46,229 bases of DNA from a virus, in the IMG/VR virus record IMGVR_UViG_3300032293_000850, positions 1 through 46,229 of that record. The stretch is one strand, 5' to 3'. This document shows, one piece after another, positions 1 to 24,580 of this stretch (the stretch's first letter is position 1; each line of letters starts with the position of its first letter). A model generated the notes under the pieces. The model did no database searches, was not told where the DNA came from, and was given only the letters and a program-made list of their open reading frames with translations. The translations under genes and the position numbers were made by a program.

Positions 1-1809
1 ATATATTTTAACTCCTTCTTTTTTACCTTTAACAGCAATACAATCCAATTCAACAACAGAATATTCATCTTTTACTTGTTCAGCTGTGAGTGGTCCAAGA
101 ATAATTTTAACACCATAGGGTTTACTTTGTCCTTCAAGTCTTGATGCTAAATTGACCGAATCACCAAGACAAGTGTAATCAAATCGTTGACTTGAACCCA
201 TATTACCAACAACAACGGTGCCTGTATTAATACCTAAACCCATACCAAAGGCAGGAATACCTTCTTGCTCAATTTCTCTATTAAATTCATCTAAACTATT
301 CATCATCTGTAATGCAGTTTTAACTGCCATCTTAGCATGATTGGGTTCATCTACAGGTGCGTTCCAAAATGCCATTTGAGCATCACCAATATATTTGTCT
401 AATGTTCCATTGTTCTCTATAATCTTTGCTGTCATTGCAGTCATGTATCGATTCATAATCTTAGTAAGACCTTGAACATCTTTACCATAGTGTTCGGAAA
501 TTGTTGTAAATCCACGAACATCCGTAAACATAATAGAAAGTTCTCTTGATTCTCCACCAAGAACTAACAGTTCTGGATTCTTCTGCAATTTTTCTACTAG
601 TGCTGGAGACAAATATGTTCCAAATTGTTTTTTGATTTGGAGTTTTTGTTTGAGCTCGGACAAAAATTTGACTGTGTATCCATGAGCGTAACAAAGCGTA
701 ATGGTGAGTATAGGAAATACAGCATCAAAAAGATATTGGTGTCCCAAAAATAATTGTTTGGTGCCAAAGTAAGTAAATACGGCAATTGTGATTGGTGCGA
801 TGTATCCATGCGTATACCTCGTAAAGAAAAGAGCTAATAAGCAAGCAATAAATGTATATAATATTTCTGCACCGTCAGCATAATCTGTTCGAGATATATT
901 AGTACCTGAAATTACAGTATCTAATACGGCTGCTTGTAAATAATGTGGATAGACTGACCCCATAGATGTTCCGACAGGGTTGTTAAGACCCTTTGCGGTA
1001 ACACCGATGATGACAATTCCTCCTTTGAAATCATTGGGTAAGTTGTTGGCACTATGTTGAATTGGTTTTGTTGACCAGTCAACCCAAATTCGACCCATGT
1101 TGTCCGTTGTAATTTTACCAAATTTTGGAATTCTGACGGCTTCGATTCCGTATTCAGTAACTTTGACTTGGAAACTTGGGTCTCCGCTGGCGACCCGCAA
1201 TGTTTCAAGACTAATGCTCGGATACAACTTTTGTTGTGAGCTGACGACCATAGGAACTCGTCTGGTAACGCCATCAAGTTCTGGTAAGGTATTAACAATG
1301 CCAACGCCAGCAGCAGTTGAATTAAATGATTGTATATTAGGTTCAATGTTTTCATATTTTATTCCTACATCTTCACCACCAATTACGGAAACACCTGGCC
1401 TAAATGGTGTATGTTTCTGTTTGAAGTGTGTGTCATTTGTGCCTGTATGTGGTATAACAACAGGAACTTGTTTAAATGTTTGTGCTAAATCCAAATCTTG
1501 ACCAAAACGGTCAGACTCAGGCATATAGATATTAAAGACAACCAGCCCAGCACCACGAGCATAAACATCATTAATAAGTTTGGAATATTCTCTGCGAGGG
1601 AACGGGAATTGTCCTTTTTGTCGAATAGTTTCGTCATCTATATTTACAACATGTACCTGTTGAGATACAGTTGTCTCCTTTGAGGTTATTAATTGGTCGA
1701 AATAACGAAGTCGAACAGATTCCAAAAAAATAGGGTCTGCAATCCGTATGGCAAGTAATAACAACAATGTGATTACAGCTGTCCATGGAGAGAATAATAT
1801 TTTTTTCAT
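1..1809 (-). CDS. CHASE2-domain class III adenylate cyclase (3' end beyond window)
   Basis: This reading frame is open from its ATG at 1809 to the window edge (603 codons, no stop). The order is an N-terminal membrane segment (about residues 10-25), a CHASE2-type extracytoplasmic sensor (about 30-320), a hydrophobic block of probably three membrane segments (about 330-405), then a class III cyclase domain (about 420 onwards). The expected catalytic residues are all visible: metal aspartates D430 (FTDVRGF) and D476 (KYIGDA), adenine-selecting K472 and D544 (FDYTCLGD), and transition-state N553 and R557 (VNLASRLEG). The K/D pair predicts ATP rather than GTP as substrate, giving cAMP. Its ATG overlaps the stop of the upstream FecR gene (ATGA), so the two are translationally coupled. 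FecR proteins and CHASE2 cyclases are often neighbours in bacteria. An active cyclase in a phage is unusual; activity is inferred, not shown. Confidence 0.9.
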   Translation of the reverse strand, partial: MKKILFSPWTAVITLLLLLAIRIADPIFLESVRLRYFDQLITSKETTVSQQVHVVNIDDETIRQKGQFPFPRREYSKLINDVYARGAGLVVFNIYMPESDRFGQDLDLAQTFKQVPVVIPHTGTNDTHFKQKHTPFRPGVSVIGGEDVGIKYENIEPNIQSFNSTAAGVGIVNTLPELDGVTRRVPMVVSSQQKLYPSISLETLRVASGDPSFQVKVTEYGIEAVRIPKFGKITTDNMGRIWVDWSTKPIQHSANNLPNDFKGGIVIIGVTAKGLNNPVGTSMGSVYPHYLQAAVLDTVISGTNISRTDYADGAEILYTFIACLLALFFTRYTHGYIAPITIAVFTYFGTKQLFLGHQYLFDAVFPILTITLCYAHGYTVKFLSELKQKLQIKKQFGTYLSPALVEKLQKNPELLVLGGESRELSIMFTDVRGFTTISEHYGKDVQGLTKIMNRYMTAMTAKIIENNGTLDKYIGDAQMAFWNAPVDEPNHAKMAVKTALQMMNSLDEFNREIEQEGIPAFGMGLGINTGTVVVGNMGSSQRFDYTCLGDSVNLASRLEGQSKPYGVKIILGPLTAEQVKDEYSVVELDCIAVKGKKEGVKIY

Positions 1810-2876
1810 TTTTGTATAATAGTAATGTTAGTTGTACCACCAGTATTAACTTTTTGGTATATTGGCGAACTATCTTGTGTAATATTTAGTACGAGGTTGG
1901 ATTCTCTATTTACCGTTACGATTGCCGTGTGAGCCGCAACCTTCATTAATATCAACTTACCATCTTCAGTTACAGCATATTTTAATCCACTTCCCTCATT
2001 GTATCCTGGAAGCATAGTACTTTGTTCTAATATAGATTCCTGTGACGCTGATAATGCTCTATTGCTCTCATCGAGCATATTTGGTAATAGATCGACATCG
2101 AGGTAATTCATGCCCAATAAATCATATATTAGGTAATCTTTATTCAACTCATCGAACTTTAATAAATCTTTATCCAAAAAGTTTACATCAAGCGGATTAA
2201 TTTTATTGTTGGATAATTTATCTTCTTCTTTTATTTCTTTTGGTGGAGAAACAATTAAAAGATTGTTAATATTACTTGGATCGATTAAAACAATCACAGG
2301 AGCACTTGGTGGAGTTGATAGAGAATTGACAACTGTAGTTTGAAATGCTTGATCCATATACACCTCGCCCGCATCATTTTTTACAGAGATTGCTCCAGTA
2401 ACGCATGATTTCTTATCACAAGAGGGTAACAACATAATCATACTTCTACCCAACTCATCTACTGTCATAGAAAAGTCAGTGCCTCTAACTGCAATGGTGG
2501 CAGTAGGAGTACTCACAGCAACTTGTTGTGGATTTGTTTTTGCAATTTGACCACTAGCATAACGAGCAGTGCCCATTACAACTTTCATAGCAAGTTTTCC
2601 CGAACCTTTCTTTGGATCATACACGAAGTCATCCACCACAAGTTTTGATTGCTCAGTGATGTTGACTGTCGTGTTGTCCTCAAAGGTCAGCTTTGCTTTG
2701 GCTTTTGCAGTAATAATAGTATCATTCATCTCTACTCCAGAGCCAACCTTAGCTGAAATAGAATTTTTATTGCGTACTATCTCAGTTGGACCAGATTGTT
2801 CTGTGACCTTACCTACGGCCGCAAAACAATTATGGTTGCTGAGTAATATTAAGAGTAATGCCTGAGCCAGACGCAT
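1806..2876 (-). CDS. FecR-domain periplasmic protein with curlin-like tail
   Basis: A protein of 356 aa with an N-terminal signal peptide (hydrophobic stretch ending near CFAA). The FecR domain spans about residues 25-150: a region typical of FecR/SH3-like beta repeats, then the hallmark AVRGTDFSMTVDE. FecR domains are periplasmic and are usually signal-transfer or surface-associated modules. The middle (about 200-270) is rich in Leu, Asp and Asn. The last 30 or so residues (LNITQDSS ... TNITIIQK) look like a curlin repeat, linking it to the preceding gene. Its start lies inside the end of the curlin-like gene (47-nt overlap) and its stop overlaps the cyclase start. It could couple curli assembly to the CHASE2 cyclase; that role is inference. 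Confidence 0.8.
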   Translation of the reverse strand: MRLAQALLLILLSNHNCFAAVGKVTEQSGPTEIVRNKNSISAKVGSGVEMNDTIITAKAKAKLTFEDNTTVNITEQSKLVVDDFVYDPKKGSGKLAMKVVMGTARYASGQIAKTNPQQVAVSTPTATIAVRGTDFSMTVDELGRSMIMLLPSCDKKSCVTGAISVKNDAGEVYMDQAFQTTVVNSLSTPPSAPVIVLIDPSNINNLLIVSPPKEIKEEDKLSNNKINPLDVNFLDKDLLKFDELNKDYLIYDLLGMNYLDVDLLPNMLDESNRALSASQESILEQSTMLPGYNEGSGLKYAVTEDGKLILMKVAAHTAIVTVNRESNLVLNITQDSSPIYQKVNTGGTTNITIIQK

Positions 2877-3468
2877 TTACAGTACTTTGTTGCACTATCG
2901 CACCACTCTGTGTCACATTAATATTATTAGTTGCACCAGATGTTGCCAATGAGTTTACGGTAATATCGGCTTGATGAGAACCGCCTGTAGCACTATGAGT
3001 AATGTTGGTATAATCTCCAACAATACTTACAACGCTGCGTTGATTTCCACCTGAACCGAGAGCTTGAGTTACTGTATTATTATCACCTTGAATAGTGGTG
3101 GTAATTGTTGCACCAGAACACCCAGCAGAACTAGAAGTTCCACATGTAATCGATTGTATATTTGTGCTACCAACTGTTGATAATGTAACAGCTGCAGCAC
3201 TTCCATTTACTGTCATGTCCAATTCATTATTAGATCCTTGTTGAGTAATAGTAGCAGCAACCGAGTCACCATAAATGATGGCCGGATTTAACAATGTACC
3301 AATTCGGTTATCGGAACCGTCTTGTGTTATGTTGATTGTTGCACTATCACCGCTTTGGTCTAAATATAATTCATTTGCCTTAACGATATTCAAACCAAGA
3401 ACAGTCATTAATACTACTGCGAGTACTTTGCTCGACAACCCGCAAACGCCTGTCGTTCTAGTTTTCAT
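2830..3468 (-). CDS. Curlin-repeat secreted protein (CsgA/CsgB-like)
   Basis: A protein of 212 aa with a signal peptide (basic start, hydrophobic core about residues 13-28, cleavage near VKA). The mature part is rich in Asn, Gln, Ser, Thr and Gly and contains degenerate curlin-type strands with Asn/Gln ladders: INITQDGSDNRIG, ATITQQGSNNELD, TTIQGDNNTVTQ, YTNITHSATGG, NNINVTQSG and LNITQQP. In curli, such repeats (N-x5-Q-x4-N-x5-Q type) form stacked beta-strand-turn-beta-strand amyloid. The repeats here are irregular, and two Cys (in SITCGTSSSAGC) are unusual for curlins. It sits directly downstream of csgG in the same operon, so it is the likely cargo of that channel. It could instead be a non-amyloid adhesin built from the same repeat. 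Confidence 0.75.
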   Translation of the reverse strand: MKTRTTGVCGLSSKVLAVVLMTVLGLNIVKANELYLDQSGDSATINITQDGSDNRIGTLLNPAIIYGDSVAATITQQGSNNELDMTVNGSAAAVTLSTVGSTNIQSITCGTSSSAGCSGATITTTIQGDNNTVTQALGSGGNQRSVVSIVGDYTNITHSATGGSHQADITVNSLATSGATNNINVTQSGAIVQQSTVNASGSGITLNITQQP

Positions 3469-4247
3469 TTGTTTTCCTTTTTAAATTTCCAGATACCTTT
3501 TCTTTCTCCTTCCATAATCAACTCGTATACGCCTTGTTCAATGGCAACTCGAACAGCATATGTTGTTGGTTCATTCAATGCAGCGCCATTTTCTAATTCA
3601 AGTGATTTTGTTCCTTGGTCAACAAATCTTAAAACTCCTACATTGTGAGCGGTACTGTAAATAGTTTTTGATACAGCAGTCGTCAGCAATACTTCTCCTG
3701 ACGCCACACTTACGATTCTTAATGAAATGACTACTTCATCCACTCGATATTGTTGACTACCACCAATTCCTAAAAATCGTGCTCCATTTCCGCCTGAACG
3801 AATATTGGTATCATAACCAACTATACCACCTTCAATTACTATACCAGCAACAGACAATGGCCTTAAAGGCTTTGCATCTTTACCTTCATATACGTCACGC
3901 TGATTGCGTATTAGTTGTCTTTCTTTGATAAGATTATCGAGACCAACTCGTTCAACAACTTTAAACCATCCTTTAGAATCCTGTAGTGCTTTAATTAAAA
4001 ACACTTCAGATCCTTGTGTAACTGCGGAAGAAAATAACGCCAATCTTTCGCTTGATTTTTTTTGGCCAGTTAAATCTCTAAACCCATAAACTGCCATAGT
4101 TAATGGAGGACCATCAAGTTCTGGCAATCTTTCTACTAATGATTTTCGTGGCTCAAGTTTTATTGGTTCTTCTTGAGATGCCATCATGTGAATGTTTGCA
4201 CATCCAGATAACATAGTAATTATGAATAACACTATAAGTTTATTCAT
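3465..4247 (-). CDS. csgG: CsgG-family curli secretion channel lipoprotein
   Basis: A protein of 260 aa, near the usual CsgG length. It has a lipoprotein signal with lipobox MLSGC (Cys16), so the mature protein should be lipidated and placed in the outer membrane, where CsgG forms a nonameric beta-barrel that exports curlins. Family blocks are clear: AVYGFRDLTGQ, ALQDSKGWFKVVER, GLDNLIKERQ, EGGIVGYDTN, RSGGNGARFLGIGG, LRIVSVASGEVL and NEPTTYAVRVAIEQGVYELI. By eye, the E. coli pore-constriction segment (Tyr51, Asn55, Phe56) aligns with SERLALFS, so only the Phe seems kept. It starts 2 nt after csgF and overlaps the curlin-like gene by 4 nt. CsgG homologues are known in HTVC008M-like phages. 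Confidence 0.93.
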   Translation of the reverse strand: MNKLIVLFIITMLSGCANIHMMASQEEPIKLEPRKSLVERLPELDGPPLTMAVYGFRDLTGQKKSSERLALFSSAVTQGSEVFLIKALQDSKGWFKVVERVGLDNLIKERQLIRNQRDVYEGKDAKPLRPLSVAGIVIEGGIVGYDTNIRSGGNGARFLGIGGSQQYRVDEVVISLRIVSVASGEVLLTTAVSKTIYSTAHNVGVLRFVDQGTKSLELENGAALNEPTTYAVRVAIEQGVYELIMEGERKGIWKFKKENK

Positions 4248-4248
4248 A

Positions 4249-4695
4249 TTAAAATGAAAATGAGGCTATGGGAACAGTAATGTCGGTTCGATTCCCGTTG
4301 GTTTCAGTGATTGTTAATGTGACATCAACTCCGGTTTTAACCCAAGAAATATTTGTTCCTTGAAAATCCAGAGAACCCGAAGTACCGCCACCTTCGGCAA
4401 ACATTGCGTCAGCTAATTGTTTTGATAACTGTGCGTAAATACGAGATTCTACATTAACCAAAAACTTTGATAAATTTGTATTTTTTGATTCTCGTTCAGC
4501 TTTATCAGAAGCTGCTTTTTGTTCATCTTTAATTTTTGCTTTACGTTGTGCTTCAATTGTTTCAATAGTTAAAACATGGGTTGACCAACCTATACCATTA
4601 AAAGCGGGTGAATTGAATTGATGAATTAACTCAGATGCATATGAATTTGAACTAATCAGTAGGAGGATTACTAGAATCTTTTTTATGTTTTTCAT
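4249..4695 (-). CDS. csgF: CsgF-family curli assembly protein
   Basis: A protein of 148 aa with a signal peptide (cleavage near NSYA-S). The mature N-terminus ELIHQFNSPAFNG resembles the CsgF N-terminus (aromatic, Asn-Pro-x-Phe-Gly), the part of CsgF that inserts in the CsgG barrel and forms a second constriction. A charged linker (about residues 50-75) follows, then a C-terminal beta-rich part (VDVTLTITETNGNRTDITV) matching the CsgF tail. In bacteria CsgF sits at the cell surface and links nucleation to the pore. It is immediately upstream of csgG, and its start overlaps the end of the upstream membrane-protein gene by 44 nt. No csgE, csgC or csgD is visible in the window. Confidence 0.82.
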   Translation of the reverse strand: MKNIKKILVILLLISSNSYASELIHQFNSPAFNGIGWSTHVLTIETIEAQRKAKIKDEQKAASDKAERESKNTNLSKFLVNVESRIYAQLSKQLADAMFAEGGGTSGSLDFQGTNISWVKTGVDVTLTITETNGNRTDITVPIASFSF

Positions 4696-4930
4696 CTTCT
4701 TTAATTTCTCGCATCATTAATACGATGTTAATTTTCTGATTCAATCTTATCAAATCATTATCTAACATCCTGACACGGTCAATCAAGGCAATCAAAACAC
4801 CACTGGCTTCACTAAGAACGGGTTTAATTTCTTTTGTTACCCAAGTCCACACATAATAAATGAAGTAACCCATGCCACCAGCAGCAACAATTGGGAAACC
4901 ATATTTGTTAACTAATTCTACTATATCCAT
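4652..4930 (-). CDS. Small membrane protein, paralogue of the 5123-5401 protein
   Basis: A protein of 92 aa. The N-terminus has one membrane segment (about residues 10-30: GFPIVAAGGMGYFIYYVWTW). An amphipathic, likely coiled-coil part (about 40-75) and a short charged tail follow. It shares layout and residues with the 92-aa product at 5123-5401 (GFP..AA...GYF, then SG.. .ALIDRV/ALDNRV and a LIRL/VIRI block), so the two are duplicates. Its size and layout resemble holin-like BhlA/UviB-type proteins, but that is only a structural comparison. It overlaps csgF by 44 nt. Confidence 0.7.
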   Translation of the reverse strand: MDIVELVNKYGFPIVAAGGMGYFIYYVWTWVTKEIKPVLSEASGVLIALIDRVRMLDNDLIRLNQKINIVLMMREIKEDEKHKKDSSNPPTD

Positions 4931-4936
4931 TTTTTA

Positions 4937-5122
4937 TTAATGTCTTTTTACAAAGGACACACGACCAGTCGAACCAACTTTTATTTCAAACAAATCTCCT
5001 TGTTTCCAAGATGCTGGTAAATTACCATAAACATTTTCATTTGTTTGTTCTTTTAATTTTAAATCTCTGTCAAGAATAAGAGCATTTTCTCCAATATCTA
5101 GAACATAGTCTACATACATCAT
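4937..5122 (-). CDS. Conserved small protein of unknown function
   Basis: A protein of 61 aa lying between the two paralogous membrane-protein genes. It starts directly after the stop of the upstream gene and ends 6 nt before the next. It has no signal peptide or membrane segment. The C-terminal part (QGDLFEIKVGSTGRVSFVKR) reads like two or three beta strands of a small barrel. I do not recognise the family; its tight position in the late operon supports it being real. Confidence 0.6.
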   Translation of the reverse strand: MMYVDYVLDIGENALILDRDLKLKEQTNENVYGNLPASWKQGDLFEIKVGSTGRVSFVKRH

Positions 5123-5401
5123 TTAATCTCTCCTAGCATCATTCTTGCCGTCTGCACGAGCAATACGGTCGATATCAGGTTTGACACCCATAGCACTTGA
5201 CATTAGAGTATCAATTCTGATAACATCATGGTTCATTGTTTTAACACGATTGTCTAAGGCGGTAATAATACCACTTAAACTTTTGACAGAACCGGTAACA
5301 CCGGCCAGAATAAATTTTAGAGTTAGGAACACAAAGTAACCTGCCGCAAACGCTGCGGCCATTGGGAAACCTAATTCGGCAACAATCTTAAAAAAGTCCA
5401 T
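5123..5401 (-). CDS. Small membrane protein, first gene of the leftward late operon
   Basis: A protein of 92 aa. One hydrophobic N-terminal segment (about residues 8-32, GFPMAAAFAAGYFVFLTLKF) is followed by an amphipathic helix with a heptad-like LSGIITALDNRVKTMNHDV and a charged C-terminus. It is a paralogue of the product at 4652-4930. It is the first gene after the minus-strand late promoter at 5472-5479, 71 nt from that promoter to its ATG. A holin-like or channel-partner role beside csgF/csgG is plausible but unproven. Confidence 0.7.
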   Translation of the reverse strand: MDFFKIVAELGFPMAAAFAAGYFVFLTLKFILAGVTGSVKSLSGIITALDNRVKTMNHDVIRIDTLMSSAMGVKPDIDRIARADGKNDARRD

Positions 5402-5471: not shown

Positions 5472-5479
5472 TATTTATA
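5472..5479 (-). promoter_or_regulatory. T4-type late promoter for the curli operon
   Basis: On the minus strand these bases read TATAAATA, a perfect match to the T4 late promoter element recognised by gp55-programmed RNA polymerase. It lies in the divergent gap and points towards the leftward operon, 71 nt before its first ATG. No other promoter-like element of similar quality is visible upstream of that operon. Confidence 0.7.
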
Positions 5480-14670: not shown

Positions 14671-15387
14671 ATGTCTGCTACCGTGATTATACCAACTACT
14701 GGATCACCAGAAGTTAAAACTGCCGTTGAATCTGTTCTGAATCAAAGTCATCCTACCAAATGTTATGTTGTGATTGATGGTGATGAGAATGTAGAAAAAA
14801 CATTAGAAGTGTTAGATTCAACCGTGAATGATGAACGAGTATACATTTGTTCGTTACCAATCAATGTCGGTGCCAAAGGTTTCTATGGTCACCGTGTCTA
14901 TGCGGCTTTCACGCACCTAATCGATACAGAGTATGTTGGGTACCTAGACCAAGATAATTGGTTATATCGGTCTCATGTGGAAAACTGCATCAAAACAATT
15001 AACTCAACAAATTTAGATTGGTGTTATTCTCTACGACAAATATATAACAAACAAGGTAAGATGGTTGCTTTTGATGATTGTGAATCTCTTGGTATCTGGC
15101 CAACATATCATGGCCATCATCACATAGATACTAATTGTTACTTTATTAAAACTGATGTGGCAATCAAACTCGCAAGTGTTTGGCACGGTGGTTGGGGACA
15201 AGATAGAGTGTTTTTACAAGCAATCACAAAACACTTTCCTAAATTCTATTGCACAGGTGAATATTCAACTTGTTATAGAGTAGATGGTGGCCAAGGTTCT
15301 GTTACGGCAGAATTCTTTGAAAATGGTAATAAAATAATGAATGAAAAATATAATGGAGTTTTCCCATGGCGAGCAAAAAAGATTTAA
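14671..15387 (+). CDS. Family 2-like glycosyltransferase
   Basis: A protein of 238 aa. The GT-A fold signature is visible: ATVIIPTTG at the N-terminus, SVLNQSHPTKCYVVIDGDEN for the nucleotide-binding strand, and a DxD-like YLDQDNW (about residue 92). A later GGWGQDRVFLQAI resembles the acceptor-side ED motif region. It would transfer a sugar from a nucleotide donor. It opens a run of glycan genes reaching 21282. Confidence 0.8.
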   Translation: MSATVIIPTTGSPEVKTAVESVLNQSHPTKCYVVIDGDENVEKTLEVLDSTVNDERVYICSLPINVGAKGFYGHRVYAAFTHLIDTEYVGYLDQDNWLYRSHVENCIKTINSTNLDWCYSLRQIYNKQGKMVAFDDCESLGIWPTYHGHHHIDTNCYFIKTDVAIKLASVWHGGWGQDRVFLQAITKHFPKFYCTGEYSTCYRVDGGQGSVTAEFFENGNKIMNEKYNGVFPWRAKKI

Positions 15388-16223
15388 TCATTGGTGCATT
15401 TACAAATTACAATTACAATCAATTAAAACCTTGGGTTGAATCGATTGATAAACTACAGGGTTCAAACAATATCGAAAAGGTGATGGTTGTTGGTAATGCT
15501 TCACAAGAAACTAAAAATGAATTAACAAAAAGAAACTTCATTTTAGTTGATATGCCGCAGGCAAATATTCCTGTGCATGTTCTCCGATTTCTCTCCATCT
15601 ATGAATACCTAAGAACCAATCATAACAAATATCGTTATGTGGTTACTACTGATGTTAAAGATGTTTACTTTCAAATGAATCCGTTTCAATGGTTAGAGAA
15701 CAATCTAGGATCCTGTAAATTGGTTGCCGGTTCAGAAGGTATGAGATACAAAGATGAGCCTTGGGGTAATGAGAACTTAATGCAAGCCTACGGTCCGTAT
15801 GTACACAATCTATTCAAAGATAATGTAATATACAATGTAGGAACGATTGGTGGTGAATCGGAGTATGTTAAAGACTTAGTGTTCAACATCTTCACTAATG
15901 CCACCAATCGTCCAATTCCTATCGTTGACCAAGCGGTATACAATGTGTTAATCAATACTGTGCCGTATAGCGACATTACTTATTTTGCATATCAATTGGA
16001 TGGATGGGCATGCCAGGCCGGCACAACAGTAGATCCATCCAAAATAGAACAGTTTAGGCCAAACCTACTGGAAGCTGAGCCTAAATTTGAGGAGGGTGTT
16101 GTTAAAACATCTTTGGGACAACCTTTCTGTATTGTGCATCAATATGACCGAGTACCTGAATGGAAAAAGTTTGTTGAGAAAAAATATGGGCAAGAAGATT
16201 TAATTACTTTTAGGACAACATAA
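15366..16223 (+). CDS. Glycosyltransferase-like protein (GT-A type)
   Basis: A protein of 285 aa. VVTTDVKDVYFQMNPFQW (about residues 95-112) is a metal-binding Asp motif in a GT-A context, and YNVGTIGGESEYVKDLV resembles the NxGxxGG loop of sugar transferases that scan a membrane or glycan acceptor. The start has its own GGAG site and lies 22 nt inside the preceding gene. Acceptor and sugar are not predictable. Confidence 0.65.
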   Translation: MASKKDLIIGAFTNYNYNQLKPWVESIDKLQGSNNIEKVMVVGNASQETKNELTKRNFILVDMPQANIPVHVLRFLSIYEYLRTNHNKYRYVVTTDVKDVYFQMNPFQWLENNLGSCKLVAGSEGMRYKDEPWGNENLMQAYGPYVHNLFKDNVIYNVGTIGGESEYVKDLVFNIFTNATNRPIPIVDQAVYNVLINTVPYSDITYFAYQLDGWACQAGTTVDPSKIEQFRPNLLEAEPKFEEGVVKTSLGQPFCIVHQYDRVPEWKKFVEKKYGQEDLITFRTT

Positions 16224-16750
16224 TGGACTTTGAAAAAGAATATCAAGATGCGTGTGTGAGAGTTACAGACATACACGAACATTTACCTATCATATCGGAA
16301 TTAACTTCGGAATGTAAACACGCAACAGAACTTGGTGTGGGTTGGGCTCAAAGCACTAGAGCCTTTTTACGACATGATGTTGAATTACACAGTTACGAAT
16401 ATTCACCTTTGCCGGGAATTATCGACTTTTTTATTCAAGCAAAAAAATCTGGCCGAAATGCAACACTACATATTGATGATACACGCAAAGTAGAAATTGC
16501 AGAAACCGATATTATGTTGGTAGATAGTTTACATGTTTATGAACAAGTAAAAACTGAACTGGAATTGCACGCTGGTAAAGTAAAAAAGTATCTGTTGTTT
16601 CATGATACCACACTATTTGCAGACAATGGTGAATTTGGTGGCAAAGGTATCTGGCCAGCTGTTCAAGAATTTATCGACTCACATCCAGAATGGCAACTGA
16701 TTGAGAGAAGAACTAATAATAATGGTTTAACAATTTTAAAGAGAGTATAA
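16223..16750 (+). CDS. Class I SAM methyltransferase-like protein
   Basis: A protein of 175 aa. ATELGVGWAQSTRAFL resembles the glycine-rich motif I of SAM-dependent methyltransferases, followed by the acidic strand LHSYEYSP, motif DIMLVDSLHVYEQVKTELEL, and LLFHDTTLFAD. This small family is common in phage and bacterial glycan clusters and is likely to methylate a sugar. It starts in a TAATG overlap. Confidence 0.65.
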   Translation: MDFEKEYQDACVRVTDIHEHLPIISELTSECKHATELGVGWAQSTRAFLRHDVELHSYEYSPLPGIIDFFIQAKKSGRNATLHIDDTRKVEIAETDIMLVDSLHVYEQVKTELELHAGKVKKYLLFHDTTLFADNGEFGGKGIWPAVQEFIDSHPEWQLIERRTNNNGLTILKRV

Positions 16751-17751
16751 TGAAAATCTTTATTACAGGAATTGCAGGTTTCCTAGGTAGCCACCTTGCA
16801 GATAGAATGTTGGATTTAGGACACGAAGTTCTTGGTAATGACACTCTTATTGGTGGTTATCGTGACAATGTTCCAAAGAAAGCAAAATTATATGTTGTCG
16901 ATTGTTGTGATATTGAAAAGATGACATATGTTATGGAAGGTTGTGATATTGTAATTCATACTGCTGCTACTGCACATGAAGGCCTTTCTGTATTCAGTCC
17001 TAGTTTTATTACCAAAAATATTTTTGAAGCCTCTGTTGCAACAATCTCCGCAGCAATACAAAACAAAGTAAAACGATTCGTATATTGTACCTCAATGGCA
17101 AGATATGGTAATCAACCACATCCATTTACAGAAGATATGGCACCACGACCAGTAGACCCATATGGTGTTGCAAAAGTTGCTGGTGAAGATGTATTAAAGA
17201 TTCTTGCAGAAACACACGGCATGGAATGGAACATTGCTGTACCACATAACATCGTTGGTCCTCGCCAAAAGTTTGATGATCCATTCCGTAATGTAATGAG
17301 TATTATGGCTAATCGTAATCTCCGTGGTAAACCTGCAATCATTTATGGTGACGGCAATCAAACTCGTTGTTTCTCGTACATTGCTGATTGTATTAATTGT
17401 TTGGAGAAGATGGCATTGGATCCAAAGGTTGTTGGTGAAATTATCAACATTGGTCCTGATGATGGTACAATCTCAATTAAAGAATTGGCAGTATTGGTTG
17501 CAAAAGAAACTGGATTTGAAGGTGAAGCAATTCATGTGCCAGACCGACCAAGAGAAGTTAAACACGCAGATTGCTCTGCTGATAAGGCAAGATGGTTACT
17601 ACAATATGAAACCAAAACTACATTAGAAAAGTCTATTCAAGAAACTGTATCATACATTAAGAAAAAAGGTCCTAGAGAATTTGACTATTCTTATCCAGTG
17701 GAGATTATCAATGAAAAAACTCCTAAAACATGGAAAGACAGGTTAATGTAA
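16750..17751 (+). CDS. NAD-dependent sugar-nucleotide epimerase/dehydratase (SDR)
   Basis: A protein of 333 aa, normal length for extended SDR enzymes. The Rossmann motif ITGIAGFLGSHL (TGxxGxxG, residues 5-16) is followed by VDCCDIE, VIHTAATAHEG, VYCTSMARYG (active-site Ser/Thr) and the catalytic pair DPYGVAK (YxxxK). GPRQKFDDPFRN and YGDGNQTRCFSYIADC are substrate-binding blocks of GalE-like proteins. It would interconvert or dehydrate a nucleotide-sugar for the neighbouring transferases. The stop overlaps the next ATG. Confidence 0.9.
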   Translation: MKIFITGIAGFLGSHLADRMLDLGHEVLGNDTLIGGYRDNVPKKAKLYVVDCCDIEKMTYVMEGCDIVIHTAATAHEGLSVFSPSFITKNIFEASVATISAAIQNKVKRFVYCTSMARYGNQPHPFTEDMAPRPVDPYGVAKVAGEDVLKILAETHGMEWNIAVPHNIVGPRQKFDDPFRNVMSIMANRNLRGKPAIIYGDGNQTRCFSYIADCINCLEKMALDPKVVGEIINIGPDDGTISIKELAVLVAKETGFEGEAIHVPDRPREVKHADCSADKARWLLQYETKTTLEKSIQETVSYIKKKGPREFDYSYPVEIINEKTPKTWKDRLM

Positions 17752-18509
17752 TGACTGATGTTTCTTTTTGTCACCTCGCCTCAACAGGTAAAAAAATATC
17801 CACAGAAAAAATAGTAGAAAATAATCGTAAACATTATCCAGATGCTTATTATTTTTTAGGCTCAGATGCTGCTGATGATTTATCTGAAATTGGACTGAAC
17901 AATAAATGTGATTATTATCCATTTTCTGTAAAAGTTGGATATCCTAGTTACGATTTAAAAAAACTACTGTTATGGTTTGAAAGATTTAAATTAGCTTGCC
18001 AAAATTGTAACACTTCACATATAATGATGATGGAAGACGATGTTTGGATTAAAAAACAATTGTCTATTGAAGATGCTTGGGAGATGGCAGGACACGATAT
18101 TAGAATTGGTAATATTATTCCTGATTTTATTATTGATAGTATTGAAGAATTTTCTGGCAAAAGGCCATTAACAAATCAATATGGTTGTGGTGGAGGATCA
18201 ATATTCAAAGTGTCTACCTTTTTGAATAACCATGATAGAGTAATTGCTTGGTTTAAGAATAATCACGATAAGTTTCAACAACAATATAACCCACTAGGAT
18301 TTATGGATTGTTATATGGTAGTTTATTATATGTTGTGTGGAAAAGATTATAGTGTTAATCCATATTTGACAGATACACATCATCACCAAAAAGGTTTTGA
18401 TTTTGATAAATTTGTAGAAGATCAACCTGAACATATTGAAATCATCAACAACTATAAAAAATATTATTGGCCAGAGAATAATGATGTACTCACTTTTATC
18501 ACATTATGA
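17751..18509 (+). CDS. Putative glycosyltransferase
   Basis: A protein of 252 aa from the ATG at 17751, which overlaps the epimerase stop (TAATG). An in-frame ATG 21 nt upstream is less likely. MMMEDDVWI (about residue 92) looks like a DxD motif on a hydrophobic strand, and QYGCGGGSIFKVS like the Gly-rich acceptor loop of GT-A enzymes. DTHHHQKGF lies near the C-terminus. The family is not certain. Confidence 0.55.
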   Translation: MTDVSFCHLASTGKKISTEKIVENNRKHYPDAYYFLGSDAADDLSEIGLNNKCDYYPFSVKVGYPSYDLKKLLLWFERFKLACQNCNTSHIMMMEDDVWIKKQLSIEDAWEMAGHDIRIGNIIPDFIIDSIEEFSGKRPLTNQYGCGGGSIFKVSTFLNNHDRVIAWFKNNHDKFQQQYNPLGFMDCYMVVYYMLCGKDYSVNPYLTDTHHHQKGFDFDKFVEDQPEHIEIINNYKKYYWPENNDVLTFITL

Positions 18510-19050
18510 ACAAAATCGGCCTAGGTATTTGGACACAGACAAAGAACATCCTAGTCATGAATATATAAGTAAATTCTATACCTTTGAATTTGAGAAATAT
18601 AAGAACAAACAAATTAATATTTTAGAAATTGGTTGTGCTTCTGGTGGTAGTTTGTTATTATGGTCGGATTATTTTCCTCATGCAACAATATATGGTGTTG
18701 ATAGTGGCCAAGATGCAAGATTTAAACGATGTAAAAGTTCTACCGCAGGCAATAATAGAATAAAATTGTATGAAGCGAGTGGTTATAATCCTGATTTGGT
18801 AAATGCATTGCCAAATTTTGATATAATTATTGATGACGGCCCACACACAAAAGAAAGTCATTTACAGTTTTTAGATTTATATGTAAATAAATTAAACCGA
18901 AGTGGTGTTTTAATTATTGAAGATGTGGAAAATATATCTTATGGTATAGAGTATAGTAAAAAGTTAACCTCAGATTTTCAATATGCAACACTTGACATTA
19001 ATACAAAAAAAGAGTATAATAGTATTTTATTTGTAGCAAGAAAAATATGA
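18484..19050 (+). CDS. Class I SAM methyltransferase
   Basis: About 188 aa from the ATG at 18484; an in-frame ATG at 18436 lies deeper inside the previous gene and is less likely. Motif I is ILEIGCASGGSLLLW, motif II IYGVDSGQD, and the conserved FDIIIDDGPHTKESHLQFL and GVLIIEDVENI match cephalosporin-hydroxylase or sugar O-methyltransferase type proteins found in glycan loci. It lies between glycosyltransferase-like genes, so methylation of a surface glycan or nucleotide-sugar is the natural reading. Confidence 0.8.
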   Translation: MYSLLSHYEQNRPRYLDTDKEHPSHEYISKFYTFEFEKYKNKQINILEIGCASGGSLLLWSDYFPHATIYGVDSGQDARFKRCKSSTAGNNRIKLYEASGYNPDLVNALPNFDIIIDDGPHTKESHLQFLDLYVNKLNRSGVLIIEDVENISYGIEYSKKLTSDFQYATLDINTKKEYNSILFVARKI

Positions 19051-19835
19051 ATGACATTACAATAGTTACCGCTTTCTTTGACATTGGTCGTGGTGATTGG
19101 TCTCCTGATAAAGGACTACCACACTATCTACAAAGAACAACACAAACCTATCTAGAAAGATTTGGTCATATGGCTAAATTGGAAAATGATATGGTTGTTT
19201 ATACTTCAAAAGATATGGTGGATGAGGTTAGAAGGTTGCGCCAAGATAAGCCAACACAAATATTAATAGTTGACTTTAAGAATAGTTTTCAAAATCTTAG
19301 GGAAGAAATTAATAAAGTACAAAAGAACTCCTCTTATCAAAGTAAAATTAATCCAAGTCAAGTAAAAAATCCAGAATACTGGAATGCCGATTATGTTCTT
19401 GTGAATTTATTAAAATCATCTTTTGTCAATCGTGCCTTAGATGTAATTAAAACGGATTTGGTTGCTTGGCTAGACTTTGGTTATTGTCGTGATGAGTCTG
19501 TACGCAATGGTGTAAAACGCTGGCAGTATCCTTTTGATAAAGATAAAATACACTTCTTTAATTTAAAAGATTGGAAAGAAGGAACATTTATTGAAGAAGT
19601 GATATCAAATAATGATGTGCATATTACAGGACCTTGCATTGTAGCCGGTAGAACAATGTGGCCAACTTTAGAAAAATTAGTTCACCACAATGTGAATGAA
19701 CTATTGAGTAATAACTTAATAGATGATGACCAAACCTTATTGTTGATGTCATATTTACAAGCACCAAATCATTTTGAATTGCATAAAGTATCCGAACATG
19801 ATTGGTTTACAATATTTAAGGATTATAGTGAATGA
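19047..19835 (+). CDS. HtrL/YibB-like protein
   Basis: A protein of 262 aa. The N-terminus ITIVTAFFDIGRGDW and the following LENDMVVYTSKDM match the WlaTC/HtrL family, associated with lipopolysaccharide or glycan biosynthesis. LVAWLDFGYCRDE is a further family block (Asp-Phe-Gly). It begins and ends with ATGA overlaps in the glycan island. Confidence 0.7.
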   Translation: MNDITIVTAFFDIGRGDWSPDKGLPHYLQRTTQTYLERFGHMAKLENDMVVYTSKDMVDEVRRLRQDKPTQILIVDFKNSFQNLREEINKVQKNSSYQSKINPSQVKNPEYWNADYVLVNLLKSSFVNRALDVIKTDLVAWLDFGYCRDESVRNGVKRWQYPFDKDKIHFFNLKDWKEGTFIEEVISNNDVHITGPCIVAGRTMWPTLEKLVHHNVNELLSNNLIDDDQTLLLMSYLQAPNHFELHKVSEHDWFTIFKDYSE

Positions 19836-20572
19836 AAATATATCTTAATGGAACTGCCAACTTAGGCGACTTCTTAAATGGTTTGCCGGTTCTTTCTGGT
19901 ATCAGTAAGTCGTATGGTAAGTTTGATTTAATTATTAAGCATGAAATGCGAAAGTTTAATGGCATCAAAGAATTTTTGGTGTACCAAGACATTTTTAGTA
20001 GTGTTGAATTTGATGATGACCTTTTCTTTACTGGTGCAACACACATGAGCAGTTGGCCAATCAGAGAAGATAAAAATAATCTCTGGCGACCAATTGAAAC
20101 TTGCCGTTATGAAAATTTTATGAAGGATGTTAATCACATGAAATTTCAAGTTGATGATGATTTCACAGTAAAAACACCAGAATATGATATTACTGTGAAA
20201 GACGCCTATTATGTTGGTGATAGGTGGGCTGTAGGTAATATTGATGATCGTAGAGAAACCCACGTACTATCACACTTAAAAGATTGTGAATTCATTGATT
20301 TCAATCGGCCCATGTTAGAGAATGCTTATATCATTAAAAATTTAAAGAAACCGTTCATCACAAACTTTACTGGCGTTGGTATGCTAGCTGACTTGTGTAA
20401 TGTTCCTTTATATTGTGTGTGGAAGGCAGAAGATTGGAAACCAGAATTTAGAGTAGGTGATGATGTATCTTGGGACGATGGTAAGAACATTGATAAAGTA
20501 TTTGAAAAACATTTCTATCTCAACCGTAAAGCAAAACTAGTTCATGCAAAAGATTTAGAAAGTTTATTATGA
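19832..20572 (+). CDS. GT9/heptosyltransferase-like protein (divergent)
   Basis: A protein of 246 aa. NGTANLGDFLNGLPVLSG at the N-terminus is the GDxxxxxP pattern of family 9 glycosyltransferases, and FITNFTGVGMLADLCNVPLYC resembles their donor-site TG-x-G/H segment. It is shorter than typical heptosyltransferases, and the next gene looks related, so the two may act together or one may be non-catalytic. Confidence 0.5.
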   Translation: MKIYLNGTANLGDFLNGLPVLSGISKSYGKFDLIIKHEMRKFNGIKEFLVYQDIFSSVEFDDDLFFTGATHMSSWPIREDKNNLWRPIETCRYENFMKDVNHMKFQVDDDFTVKTPEYDITVKDAYYVGDRWAVGNIDDRRETHVLSHLKDCEFIDFNRPMLENAYIIKNLKKPFITNFTGVGMLADLCNVPLYCVWKAEDWKPEFRVGDDVSWDDGKNIDKVFEKHFYLNRKAKLVHAKDLESLL

Positions 20573-21282
20573 TTATCAATATTGAACCAGGTACTTTTGG
20601 TACAGTTCGTAATGGTGATATGATTGGTGTCGCTAATGTTCTAGAACACCTTAGAAAAACAAATAACAATCCTACAATACAGTTTCATTTGAAACCAGGA
20701 AATGTTAGCTCAGACACACATTGTCAAACATTTTATGAGATAATGTTGAAGATGACTAACTATTTCTCCAAAGAAGAAGGTACAGAGTCCTTACCTTGGA
20801 GAAAGGTCAATGTTTGGGACTTTAGAGATATCTCTGGTGACCTGGTAAAAATACACAATGATGCTCAAATGGAAAAGAAAATTGTTATTTTTCCATTGTT
20901 TGATGCACCATACAACACATACCGAAATTGGCCTAGAGAACTATTGCCAAAATTGATTGAAAAATTTAGTATTGATGAGTATAAAGATTATGAAAAAATA
21001 ATTTGTAAAAAAGGTGAACCGACAGAAGGTTGTCCATTTGAAGGTTGGAGGTATTCTACCAACTTTGTTCAGAATTATTACCACATTACCACATCGGAAA
21101 TCTTTATTGGTGGTGATACCGGTTCTAGCCATTTTGCATGGGCACTTGACAGAGGACCTAAGGATATGTTATACTATAACTCCAGTAGAGGATTGATACA
21201 TACACTACCGTTTTATCTGTTACAAGGAAAGGGTAGAATGTCAAACTATTGGTTGGATTTTGAAGGTACAAAATGGAATTAA
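20569..21282 (+). CDS. GT9/heptosyltransferase-like protein
   Basis: A protein of 237 aa. FIGGDTGSSHFAWAL (about residues 180-195) is a clear GT-B donor-site signature of heptosyltransferase-type enzymes (GDTG-x-x-H-x-A). The N-terminus (IEPGTFGTVRNGDMIGV) and KIVIFPLFDAPYNTYRNWP fit the first Rossmann domain. It is the last gene of the glycan island and is followed by a 124-nt gap holding a late promoter. Confidence 0.6.
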   Translation: MIINIEPGTFGTVRNGDMIGVANVLEHLRKTNNNPTIQFHLKPGNVSSDTHCQTFYEIMLKMTNYFSKEEGTESLPWRKVNVWDFRDISGDLVKIHNDAQMEKKIVIFPLFDAPYNTYRNWPRELLPKLIEKFSIDEYKDYEKIICKKGEPTEGCPFEGWRYSTNFVQNYYHITTSEIFIGGDTGSSHFAWALDRGPKDMLYYNSSRGLIHTLPFYLLQGKGRMSNYWLDFEGTKWN

Positions 21283-21353
21283 AAGACAACATTTGATGCA
21301 CTATGTATCGAACCCAATCTTTCTATAGTTTAGCTGTATAAATCCAAAAGTTG

Positions 21354-21361
21354 TATAAATA
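21354..21361 (+). promoter_or_regulatory. T4-type late promoter
   Basis: A perfect TATAAATA, 45 nt upstream of the next ATG in the 21283-21406 gap. A second near-match (TATAAATC, 21337-21344) lies just before it. It separates the glycan genes from the internal-head-type genes, as expected for a switch to late transcription. Confidence 0.75.
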
Positions 21362-21406
21362 AGCGAACGGCAACCAAAGTGTGTTGCAAATCTAGTAAGG
21401 AAATCA

Positions 21407-22597
21407 ATGTTATCATTTAAGTCATTCTTAAAAGAAGAATCTGAAACGGGTTCTGAACTTAAACACATTCATCATGCGGAAGATAGACCTTTAATGCATG
21501 GACATTCTGGTTTTGAACACGCTCATGCCGCTTTGATGAAAGCCCATGCACACATGACTGGTGGACATAAAAGTACCAATCTGACAATGAAATATGATGG
21601 TTCACCATCGATTGTTTTTGGTCATCATCCTAAGAATAATAAATTCTTTGTTGCAACCAAATCGGCTTTCAATAAGAATCCAAAGATTAACCACACAGAA
21701 GCTGATATTGATAGAAATCATGGCCACGCACCAGGATTAGCAAAAACACTTAAACACGCTCTCAAACATCTGCCAAAAGTAACACCCAAACAAGGAGTAT
21801 TTCAAGGCGACTTGATGCACCATGCAGATACCAAAACACTACACGAAGGTTATCTAGCAGAAGCTAAAGGTGATGTTTCTTTCACACCAAATACCATCAC
21901 ATATACCGCTAAAGGTAAAGAAGCCGACAAGATTAAAAAATCTAAAGTTGGTGTTGTGGTGCATACTCAATATAGTAATGACTTAAAACACAATACTCCT
22001 CATGTGGATACCAGTAAATTTAAAGAGCATCCAGATGTACACATTCATGGTGCTGAACATGATACAAGTAAAGTTAAACACTCAGCTGAGAACGAGAAAC
22101 ACTTTCAGAAACATATGGCTGCAGCCAAAGAAATTCATGACACTCATGGTCACAAAATGTATGATTCTATACACAAAAATCATAGTGGAGAAACTGGCCA
22201 CCTATCGACATACATAAACAAGACAGTAAGACACGATGAAGTGCCTAGTGTAAAAGGTTTTAAAGAACACTTGCATGATGTTCATTCTAAAATGGCTGCA
22301 AAAGTTAAAACTGATAAATCCAAATCAGAAAAGACTAAAGAAGGAACTTCTCAGATTTCTCATGTAGAAAAACACAAAGCACATTATGGAAACTTATTGT
22401 CAATGCATCACCATTTACACCAAGCCAAAAATGCTTTGGTTAAATCATTAGAAACACATGAAGGACATTACCAACACCACATTGAAGGTAAAAAGTCTAA
22501 ACCTGAAGGTTTCGTAGTTCATCACGACAATCAACCAACCAAATTGGTTAACCGTGCTGAATTTGCTAAACAAAATTTATTAAAAGTGCGTAAATGA
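21407..22597 (+). CDS. His-rich internal-head-type protein with ligase-like nucleotidyltransferase motifs
   Basis: A protein of 396 aa, extremely rich in His and Lys. The N-terminus MLSFKSFLKEE matches the capsid-targeting type MKTYQEFIAE of T4 internal proteins. Motifs of the DNA/RNA ligase superfamily are visible in order: K62-Y-D-G-S-P (motif I, KxDG), VFQGDLM (residues 131-137, motif III-like), PEGFVV (366-371, motif IV) and TKLVNR with K379 (motif V). This suggests an enzyme that forms a Lys-AMP or Lys-NMP intermediate, perhaps packaged in the head. The late promoter upstream supports structural timing. Activity and substrate are unknown. Confidence 0.55.
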   Translation: MLSFKSFLKEESETGSELKHIHHAEDRPLMHGHSGFEHAHAALMKAHAHMTGGHKSTNLTMKYDGSPSIVFGHHPKNNKFFVATKSAFNKNPKINHTEADIDRNHGHAPGLAKTLKHALKHLPKVTPKQGVFQGDLMHHADTKTLHEGYLAEAKGDVSFTPNTITYTAKGKEADKIKKSKVGVVVHTQYSNDLKHNTPHVDTSKFKEHPDVHIHGAEHDTSKVKHSAENEKHFQKHMAAAKEIHDTHGHKMYDSIHKNHSGETGHLSTYINKTVRHDEVPSVKGFKEHLHDVHSKMAAKVKTDKSKSEKTKEGTSQISHVEKHKAHYGNLLSMHHHLHQAKNALVKSLETHEGHYQHHIEGKKSKPEGFVVHHDNQPTKLVNRAEFAKQNLLKVRK

Positions 22598-24579
22598 AAT
22601 CTTTTTTAGAATTAGTCGAAGAAACCAAACAAGGTGAAAAACACCATGTGATGACCTTTGGTCGGATGAATCCTCCAACTACAGGACATTTAAAGTTAAT
22701 CGACAAGGTAAAAGAAGTTGCTGATAAGAACAAAGCATCACACTCTGTCGTGGTTTCTCACTCACAAGATTCTAAGAAGAATCCATTATCTGGTGAAACT
22801 AAGGTCAAACACCTTAAAAGATATTCTCCAGGTACTCATATTGAATCGTCCTCAAAAGAACATCCAACATTCTTACACCACGCAGAGAAGTTACATAAGG
22901 CCGGTGTAACTCATTTACATATGGTCGTTGGTTCTGACCGTGTTAAAGAAATGAAAGAAAAGCTGCACCAGTATAATGGCACACATAAAGGTGCCCTATA
23001 CAACTATAAGAAGATTACAGTACACTCAGCAGGTCATCGTGATCCTGATGCAGAAGGTTCTGAAGGTATGTCAGGCACCAAAATGCGTAGTCATGCGGCT
23101 TCAGGTAATTATAAAGAATTTAAAAAAGGTGTTCCTGGTCATGTTGCCGACCACCATGCAAAAGAACTCTATCACGATACACGCAAAGGCATGGGAATAC
23201 ACGAAAATATCAACCGTGGACTATTCAAGGCTATCTTTGTTACTGGTGGTCCAGGTTCAGGTAAAGATGTTATCATTCGTGAAGCCATTGCTGAATCACG
23301 AGCAGTAGAATTGAATGCTACGCAAGCCTTTGATTACCTTGCTGATAAACAGAAACTTGCAGAAAAGACAAGTGATTTCCGCAGAGAGTCCATTCGAAAT
23401 CGTGGTCCTCTAATCATTAATGGACCAGCAGATAGCATTGATAAGATTAACCATATTAAAGAAGAACTGGAAGAATTAGGTTATTCCACAATGATGGTGT
23501 TTGTCAATACAACAAACGAAATTAGTCAAGAAAGAAATACCAAATTATCTAGGATGATGGTCGAATCTATTAGATATGATAAGTGGTCGCAAGCTCAGAA
23601 AAACAAAAGACTTTTTTCAGAATCTTTTGATGACTTTATACAAATTGACAATACTGGTTCATTGGAATCAATCGAGCAAGATATCACAAATACCTACATA
23701 AATATAAATGCATTTATAGAAAACAACTCCTATAATGATGTGTCATTATCATGGCTCGAAAACCACGGTAAGTTAAATATAGGTGATAAACTTGATATTA
23801 TTAAGGAAGAAAGAAATGTTAAAAGCGTTAATAAATTTATTCAAATCAAAACCAACCGAGGACTCCAAGCCGCTGGACTCGATAGTATCCCAGCCGACAA
23901 TCGTGCAGGAGACCCCAACGCAGACGACATCAAGTGGGACGCACCAAAAAGAACAAAAACCTACATCTTCCGCACCTATAGCGAAGAAAGCAAACCCACG
24001 CTCACGATCAACCCAGTCCCAAAAGAAGCCAACTTCTCCAAAGACAAAGAAAAAGTAAAGAATAAAAAACGATATTCTGATGCTCCAACAGTAAGTCAAA
24101 GACTACGAAACACCACGGGTGTTGGACCAGAATTCGATACACGCCAGCAGGGAACAGTATATCCCATGTCCGGTCTAGGCGATGTAACATATAGAGAACA
24201 AAAAGAATTTAATAGTTTTAGAAAAACGATTAAAGAGTACAAAGGATTTCAGAATGATACATCCATATCAGATATGGGAGTAGGTGGCGTTCTGAATGGT
24301 GCGACAAATTTTGAGCCCATGCAGTCTTATAAAGATGCAGAACGAAATATTGGTGTGGCTATTACCAAAAAGAAAAAACCTGTAAAAGAAGATGCGGTGA
24401 GTAAGTTGGAAACTGGTTTAACTAAATTACAAAAAACCGATTATGACACTATTGATAAGTTGATGACAAGAATTTCTAAAGATGAGAAAACAACAGGTAA
24501 AGATTTACATGACGATTTTGTAAAAAAACACGGTAAGGTACCGGACAATTGGATAAAAGACAAAAAACAGGAGAAATAA
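22594..24579 (+). CDS. NadR-like nucleotidyltransferase-kinase with capsid-targeting-like start
   Basis: A protein of 661 aa. The N-terminus MKSFLELVEE is capsid-targeting-like. Residues about 18-200 form a nucleotidyltransferase: TFGRMNPPTTGH (T29/T30-x-G31-H32, the T/HxGH motif) and SGTKMR (160-165, equivalent to ISSTxxR). Residues about 212-370 form a P-loop kinase-like domain with GGPGSGKD (218-225). This order resembles NadR, which makes NAD from nicotinamide riboside, but substrate specificity is not readable. The C-terminal 290 residues are basic and low-complexity, with VGPEFDTRQQGTVYPMSGLG and GVLNGATNFEPM as conserved-looking blocks. Codons at 23870-24060 are C/G-ending, unlike the rest, where a second frame is open. 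Confidence 0.65.
   Translation: MKSFLELVEETKQGEKHHVMTFGRMNPPTTGHLKLIDKVKEVADKNKASHSVVVSHSQDSKKNPLSGETKVKHLKRYSPGTHIESSSKEHPTFLHHAEKLHKAGVTHLHMVVGSDRVKEMKEKLHQYNGTHKGALYNYKKITVHSAGHRDPDAEGSEGMSGTKMRSHAASGNYKEFKKGVPGHVADHHAKELYHDTRKGMGIHENINRGLFKAIFVTGGPGSGKDVIIREAIAESRAVELNATQAFDYLADKQKLAEKTSDFRRESIRNRGPLIINGPADSIDKINHIKEELEELGYSTMMVFVNTTNEISQERNTKLSRMMVESIRYDKWSQAQKNKRLFSESFDDFIQIDNTGSLESIEQDITNTYININAFIENNSYNDVSLSWLENHGKLNIGDKLDIIKEERNVKSVNKFIQIKTNRGLQAAGLDSIPADNRAGDPNADDIKWDAPKRTKTYIFRTYSEESKPTLTINPVPKEANFSKDKEKVKNKKRYSDAPTVSQRLRNTTGVGPEFDTRQQGTVYPMSGLGDVTYREQKEFNSFRKTIKEYKGFQNDTSISDMGVGGVLNGATNFEPMQSYKDAERNIGVAITKKKKPVKEDAVSKLETGLTKLQKTDYDTIDKLMTRISKDEKTTGKDLHDDFVKKHGKVPDNWIKDKKQEK
23816..24058 (+). 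CDS. Possible overlapping gene nested in the NadR-like gene
   Basis: An 80-aa frame inside the preceding gene, with a good ribosome site (AAGGAAG, 8-9 nt before the ATG). The product starts MLKALINLFKSKP and continues as a Pro/Thr/Ser/Lys-rich, disordered-looking chain ending in KKK. Base composition is visibly richer in G+C than flanking sequence, as expected where two frames are constrained. Near-matches to the late promoter (CATAAATA at 23697-23704, TATAAATG at 23703-23710) lie about 110 nt upstream. The role is unknown and it may be fortuitous. Confidence 0.4.
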   Translation: MLKALINLFKSKPTEDSKPLDSIVSQPTIVQETPTQTTSSGTHQKEQKPTSSAPIAKKANPRSRSTQSQKKPTSPKTKKK

Positions 24580-24580
24580 A

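Follow-up and report, generated by a model that had tools for sequence, protein, structure and literature searches.

It is known that phages encounter cyclic-nucleotide signals or turn them to their own use. The locus described here raises the question of what a phage would do with a membrane receptor of its own that is predicted to make cAMP and is encoded last in a curli operon. The gene lies at the left edge of a viral contig, IMG/VR virus record IMGVR_UViG_3300032293_000850, of which positions 1 to 46,229 were analysed (46,229 nucleotides, hereafter the window). A preliminary description, made from the letters alone, had presented it as a catalytically complete adenylate cyclase with a CHASE2 sensor, carried by a phage, and had attached to it proposals on host regulation and defence.

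A putative CHASE2 receptor cyclase on the contig of a T4-like phage

The plus strand of this virus record encodes a T4-type DNA polymerase, UvsX, a DnaB-like helicase, a primase, ribonucleotide reductase and thymidylate synthase, together with an endolysin and a head protein, and the gp43-type polymerase shares 52% identity with its counterpart in cyanophage S-RIM50. The T4-type replication genes and the S-RIM50-like polymerase rule out a bacterial contig; judged by its gene content, the contig genuinely belongs to a T4-like phage akin to Kyanoviridae, and the assignment of the cyclase to a phage is upheld by the company it keeps. Further along the window, a probable surface-modification region (15366-26329) contains glycosyltransferase, nucleotide-sugar epimerase and cytidyltransferase-like genes.

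The cyclase frame runs on the minus strand from an ATG start through 603 codons without interruption and is open at the left contig edge. Pfam searches located a CHASE2 domain at residues 14-325 (E 2.7e-37; 129 bits, cut-off 26.3) and a Guanylate_cyc domain at residues 422-598 (E 1.1e-21; 77.7 bits, cut-off 21.9), confirming the CHASE2 domain and class III cyclase first proposed for this protein. A hydrophobic helix at residues 3-29 stands ahead of most of the CHASE2 domain, and the predicted model places helices at residues 311-396, between CHASE2 and the cyclase domain, which matches the layout of CHASE2 receptors, i.e., an N-terminal membrane segment, CHASE2, further membrane helices and a cytoplasmic output domain. 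The structure predicted with AlphaFold from 16 sequences has a mean pLDDT of 80.9, with low values near 392-418 and at some places in the active site; its catalytic domain resembles those of CyaB (Z 20.4) and CyaC (Z 19.3).

The residues of a class III cyclase are present, namely both metal-binding Asp (D430 and D476), the transition-state Asn and the Arg. Among 83 aligned cyclase sequences, D430, K472, D476 and R557 are invariant, and the transition-state Asn, N553, is kept in 81. Five of the six catalytic residues originally named thus stand as named (81-83 of 83), while the sixth, D544, was placed two positions off, the true residue being T546. The substrate-selecting position of class III cyclases lies seven residues ahead of the transition-state Asn; here it is T in 80 sequences, D in 2 and S in 1, and T546 aligns with the Thr of CyaC 'DFTAIG' in the HMMER alignment. 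Since the substrate-selecting pair is K472 and T546 (K/T, not K/D), which we take to be the hallmark of class IIIb adenylate cyclases, the window cyclase is, as far as its sequence tells, a class IIIb enzyme similar to CyaC and CyaB, with an adenine-selecting T546. CyaC of Arthrospira and CyaB of Pseudomonas aeruginosa share its catalytic fold and K/T pair, whereas their sensor domains and cellular setting differ. The cyclase is real and phage-encoded, looks catalytically competent and is probably active.

In most relatives, two of them 97% identical, the protein runs 65-84 residues further and ends in a conserved WDGxYRATSK. Because these relatives continue beyond the edge, the window copy is best read as cut by the contig end, with about 66 C-terminal cyclase residues lying outside it; a broken gene is ruled out, as the frame is intact in relatives past the edge position. 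The full frame expected to the left of the edge is therefore found uninterrupted in relatives, although the window ORF itself is incomplete.

Organization of the curli-cyclase operon

On the minus strand, two 92-aa paralogues are followed by the genes for CsgF, CsgG, curlin, FecR and, last, the cyclase, all tightly packed with overlaps or short gaps (Table 1). A short ORF of about 61 aa lies between both 92-aa genes (4937-5120). The curlin-repeat protein matches the annotated curlins of phages HTVC008M and Melnitz in phmmer searches. Bacterial curli operons (csgBAC/csgDEFG) carry CsgE or CsgD with CsgG, whereas among the operon proteins of the window, which covers part of the phage genome, no Pfam match to CsgE or CsgD was found.

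Table 1. Features of the curli-cyclase operon in the window.
Feature	Position	Strand	Basis
CHASE2-transmembrane-class IIIb adenylate cyclase (predicted)	1..1809	-	Pfam CHASE2 and Guanylate_cyc; 603 aa visible
FecR-domain protein, predicted exported	1806..2876	-	Pfam FecR 5.1e-11
Curlin-repeat protein (CsgA/B-like fibre subunit)	2830..3468	-	Pfam Curlin_rpt 0.0043, below cut-off
CsgG, outer-membrane curli secretion pore	3465..4247	-	Pfam CsgG 2.3e-49
CsgF, curli assembly factor	4249..4695	-	Pfam CsgF 7.2e-17
92-aa small membrane-type protein	4652..4930	-	phrog_18771 7.5e-37
92-aa small membrane-type protein, paralogue	5123..5401	-	phrog_18771 1.4e-34; hydrophobic segment aa 10-35
T4-type late-promoter motif TATAAATA	5472..5479	-	exact match, upstream of operon

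This gene order is not new. Adenylate cyclase and FecR were described in pelagiphage curli clusters in 2022 (PMC9599517), CsgF and CsgG are discussed in PMC7029224 and PMC9004378, and both HTVC008M and Melnitz carry the same operon, with homologues annotated as adenylate/guanylyl cyclase. The earlier statement that no phage membrane receptor cyclase of this type had been described is consequently withdrawn, although CHASE2 is unmentioned in the text of these three papers. The curli (T8SS) cluster of HTVC008M, of HTVC023P-type phages and of pelagimyophages (PMC9599517, PMC7029224) has the same genes in the same order as the window, HTVC008M showing two small proteins and then CsgF, CsgG, curlin, FecR and a cyclase to which that of the window is 38% identical. 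A second curlin, placed between FecR and the cyclase in the HTVC008M-type cluster, is absent from the window. The Methylophilales phage Melnitz (PMC9004378) also shares the operon, its order and the upstream late motif, and its cyclase is 39% identical to the one studied here; its catalytic domain, however, is of another subtype, with D546/S553 in place of T546/N553, and cAMP synthesis may therefore not be universal among relatives.

Within the phage collection, HTVC008M and Melnitz, both curli phages, are the only ones with the 92-aa paralogues (phrog_18771), which accompany the curli-cyclase operon even in rearranged loci. The pelagiphage curli cluster was described with a histidine kinase ahead of it (PMC9599517), and the paralogues are probably the genes so named. 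Their size contradicts this label, as does the fact that no kinase domain is recognisable in them; searches gave no Pfam or NCBIfam match that stands.

In the model of the FecR protein (mean pLDDT 71.6), the predicted fold of residues 49-206 matches the cell-surface signalling domain of PupR (Z 15.3, 2.5 A over 134 residues), and a disordered linker leads to a C-terminal block of six short strands at residues 298-355. The C-terminal residues NITQDSS...NITIIQK (window 1806-1990) resemble the curlin repeats of the adjoining gene, and no solved curlin structure was among the matches listed for this end of the protein. Given the curlin-like NITQ/IIQ motifs and the predicted strands, the FecR protein may dock on, cap or join the curli fibre.

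The operon is preceded by TATAAATA, 71 bases upstream of its first 92-aa gene. In T4 such a motif is established as the late promoter, and it has been applied in this sense to Melnitz (PMC9004378). Across the whole window TATAAATA is not enriched (2 found against 4.8 expected); what stands out is solely where the motif sits in relatives, ahead of the operon. Of 50 related loci, 39 have NATAAATA in the 250 bases preceding their first 92-aa gene, whereas about 0.03 occurrences would be expected in a stretch of that length; as the loci are related, the 39 are not independent events. The motif is retained at differing distances, also where the 92-aa genes are inverted. From this placement we infer late transcription of the curli-cyclase operon, which probably makes the curli genes late genes.

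A late operon with these contents could also serve lysis timing, in which case the small membrane proteins would act in lysis together with the CsgG/CsgF pore, and the cyclase would report the state of the envelope. Curli pores were proposed to take part in lysis control for Melnitz (PMC9004378), and the accompanying 92-aa paralogues and the late motif upstream would fit such a module. A bare pore, however, has no need of the curlin gene present in the window and in relatives, and the window encodes a separate endolysin, so that we consider this reading improbable.

Distribution and conservation of the cyclase

At least 562 IMG/VR stretches encode a relative of the cyclase, of which the best 80 were analysed (n = 83 in the residue alignment). 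The search of viral databases for the same gene beside FecR bore out the neighbourhood seen in the window, since FecR and CsgG lie upstream on the same strand in 44 of the 49 loci having at least 6.5 kb upstream. Of the 14 large phage records that encode the cyclase, 13 also encode CsgG; the remaining one is a fragment whose FecR gene is truncated by the end of the locus examined. Pairwise dN/dS was 0.10-0.15 for the whole protein and 0.05-0.12 for the catalytic domain, and the cyclase is therefore under purifying selection. Chance or artefact is ruled out by the Pfam scores, the more than 500 related stretches and the low dN/dS.

These data bear on the view that the FecR-cyclase pair is a passenger that arrived together with the curli genes and that some lineages are losing or have in inactive form. 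Melnitz-type cyclases with S for the transition-state Asn would agree with it, as would the HTVC008M cyclase, which has no C-terminal tail, unlike the window cyclase, for which a tail is expected from the 97% identical relatives. Decay is nevertheless difficult to reconcile with dN/dS values of 0.05-0.15, with an active site nearly invariant in the best 80 of at least 562 IMG/VR relatives and with the consistent co-occurrence with CsgG; we regard it as very unlikely.

Origin of the module

For comparison, the bacterial class to which a Rhodobacteraceae bin belongs was sampled (289 genomes). A cyclase match was found in 172 of them and CsgF in 5, one being the bin that holds phage-type contigs. 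Of 53 listed places with a bacterial cyclase, 19 have a FecR domain at most 8 kb away, where a rough estimate based on 4-Mb genomes would predict about 0.6, whereas three bacterial curli loci have neither FecR nor cyclase within about 9 kb. The phage module consequently looks like two joined bacterial cassettes, the pairing of FecR with a CHASE2-cyclase having most likely been adopted from bacteria as a finished unit and combined with curli genes. Bacterial CHASE2-adenylate cyclases such as CyaD1 of Sinorhizobium meliloti (PMC5498481) have the same domain order, and FecR is a common neighbour of bacterial CHASE2-cyclases; a FecR-CHASE2-AC-TPR-PDE cluster that likewise pairs FecR with a CHASE2-cyclase of this domain order has been published for Campylobacterota (PMC9239204). 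The phage sensors differ from these bacterial proteins in being joined to curli genes and in forming a separate clade (100/100 in a tree with a limited bacterial sample).

The catalytic-domain tree does not follow the CHASE2 clade, its bootstrap being not settled, and three loci (L082, L084 and L085) combine window-like sensors with Melnitz-type catalytic domains bearing D546 and S553. Since the sensor and catalytic trees disagree, we read the cyclase catalytic domains as having been exchanged between phages. Together with L003, these loci carry the other catalytic subtype on window-like or Melnitz sensors, possibly with altered activity. A genome-contig scan for the closest bacterial source gave only four MAG contigs with a phage-type curli operon, and a donor was not found. 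These contigs (L084-L087), which come from planctomycete MAGs and from the Rhodobacteraceae bin, itself with four copies of CsgF, probably belong to phages and were binned with bacteria.

Possible role of the cyclase

The cyclic-nucleotide-binding domain PF00027 was not found in 14 related phage records, some of them possibly fragments, and the receiver of any cAMP signal is therefore probably the host's. Two Acinetobacter phage MD-2021a records (CAKLQH020000011.1 and CAKLQF020000009.1) carry cyaA-like genes (27% over 285 aa) and may be bacterial sequence filed as phage.

We tentatively favour, with slightly less than even confidence, an explanation in which the cyclase ends a late phage curli (type VIII secretion) module, senses the envelope or fibre export and makes cAMP that the host reads. 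The operon would be transcribed late, and curlin would be exported, passing the CsgG/CsgF pore, while the exported FecR-domain protein would act either periplasmically or at the base of the fibre. As the gene neighbourhood suggests, the periplasmic CHASE2 domain could sense FecR or curlin traffic, or the envelope state, possibly through a FecR-CHASE2 contact. The cyclase would then make cAMP inside the cell. Since no cyclic-nucleotide-binding protein is recognised in the related phages, the signal would be read by a cAMP receptor of the host, which would tune late envelope functions such as fibre display or lysis timing. Against this explanation count the 5 of 49 loci in which the cyclase does not follow the curli genes, the many loci with other genes between FecR and the cyclase, the tail-less cyclase of HTVC008M and the D546/S553 subtype of Melnitz-type relatives; moreover, clumping of infected cells was not seen with Melnitz (PMC9004378). 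A more specific version, in which a dedicated late circuit reports export of the phage-made amyloid fibre, FecR sitting on the fibre or pore, CHASE2 reading it and cAMP setting how the host cell behaves late in infection (aggregation, or the time of lysis), seems to us unlikely.

The preliminary description had instead suggested that the phage reprograms host cAMP-CRP regulation. In a form close to PMC9599517, the phage would raise cAMP and thereby act on host CRP-type regulators of metabolism and biofilm, curli being one target. The cyclase looks competent for this, a host receptor would be needed as no phage-encoded one was found, and a regulatory role of the adenylate cyclase for curli has been suggested (PMC9599517). 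The suggestion nevertheless received no direct support: the conserved late motif upstream of the operon argues against an early takeover role and suggests expression after takeover, the adjoining curli genes are the phage's own, CsgD is lacking in these phages (PMC9599517) and streamlined marine hosts may have few cAMP targets. We hold such reprogramming to be a possibility, but a rather doubtful one.

Nor was direct support obtained for the idea that the enzyme feeds or jams a cyclic-nucleotide defence signal. A cyclase that feeds, swamps or mimics a signal such as that of Pycsar might be suspected because PADLOC PycC profiles match it at 6.9e-26; this match, however, is to the catalytic domain only, and PycC profiles share the general class III fold. 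Moreover, the gene encodes a CHASE2 receptor within a late curli operon that has no effector gene, its K/T pair is that of class IIIb adenylate cyclases, and no effector with a cyclic-nucleotide-binding domain occurs in the 14 related phage records. Membership in Pycsar is thus rejected, and a counter-defence or decoy role is highly improbable.

A phage curli operon with FecR and adenylate cyclase was already known. To the published accounts of these clusters the present analysis adds the CHASE2 assignment, purifying selection and the conserved late motif, as well as the bacterial FecR-CHASE2-cyclase pairing absent from three bacterial curli loci, the apparent exchange of catalytic domains and the finding of no cyclic-nucleotide-binding protein in 14 records. 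If the late curli module works as we tentatively propose, a phage-encoded transmembrane receptor that makes cAMP would constitute a signalling input in the envelope of the infected cell. The gene is common in IMG/VR, so its role is worth a bench test, and its relatives in two cultured phages, HTVC008M and Melnitz, make expression timing and cAMP levels measurable.
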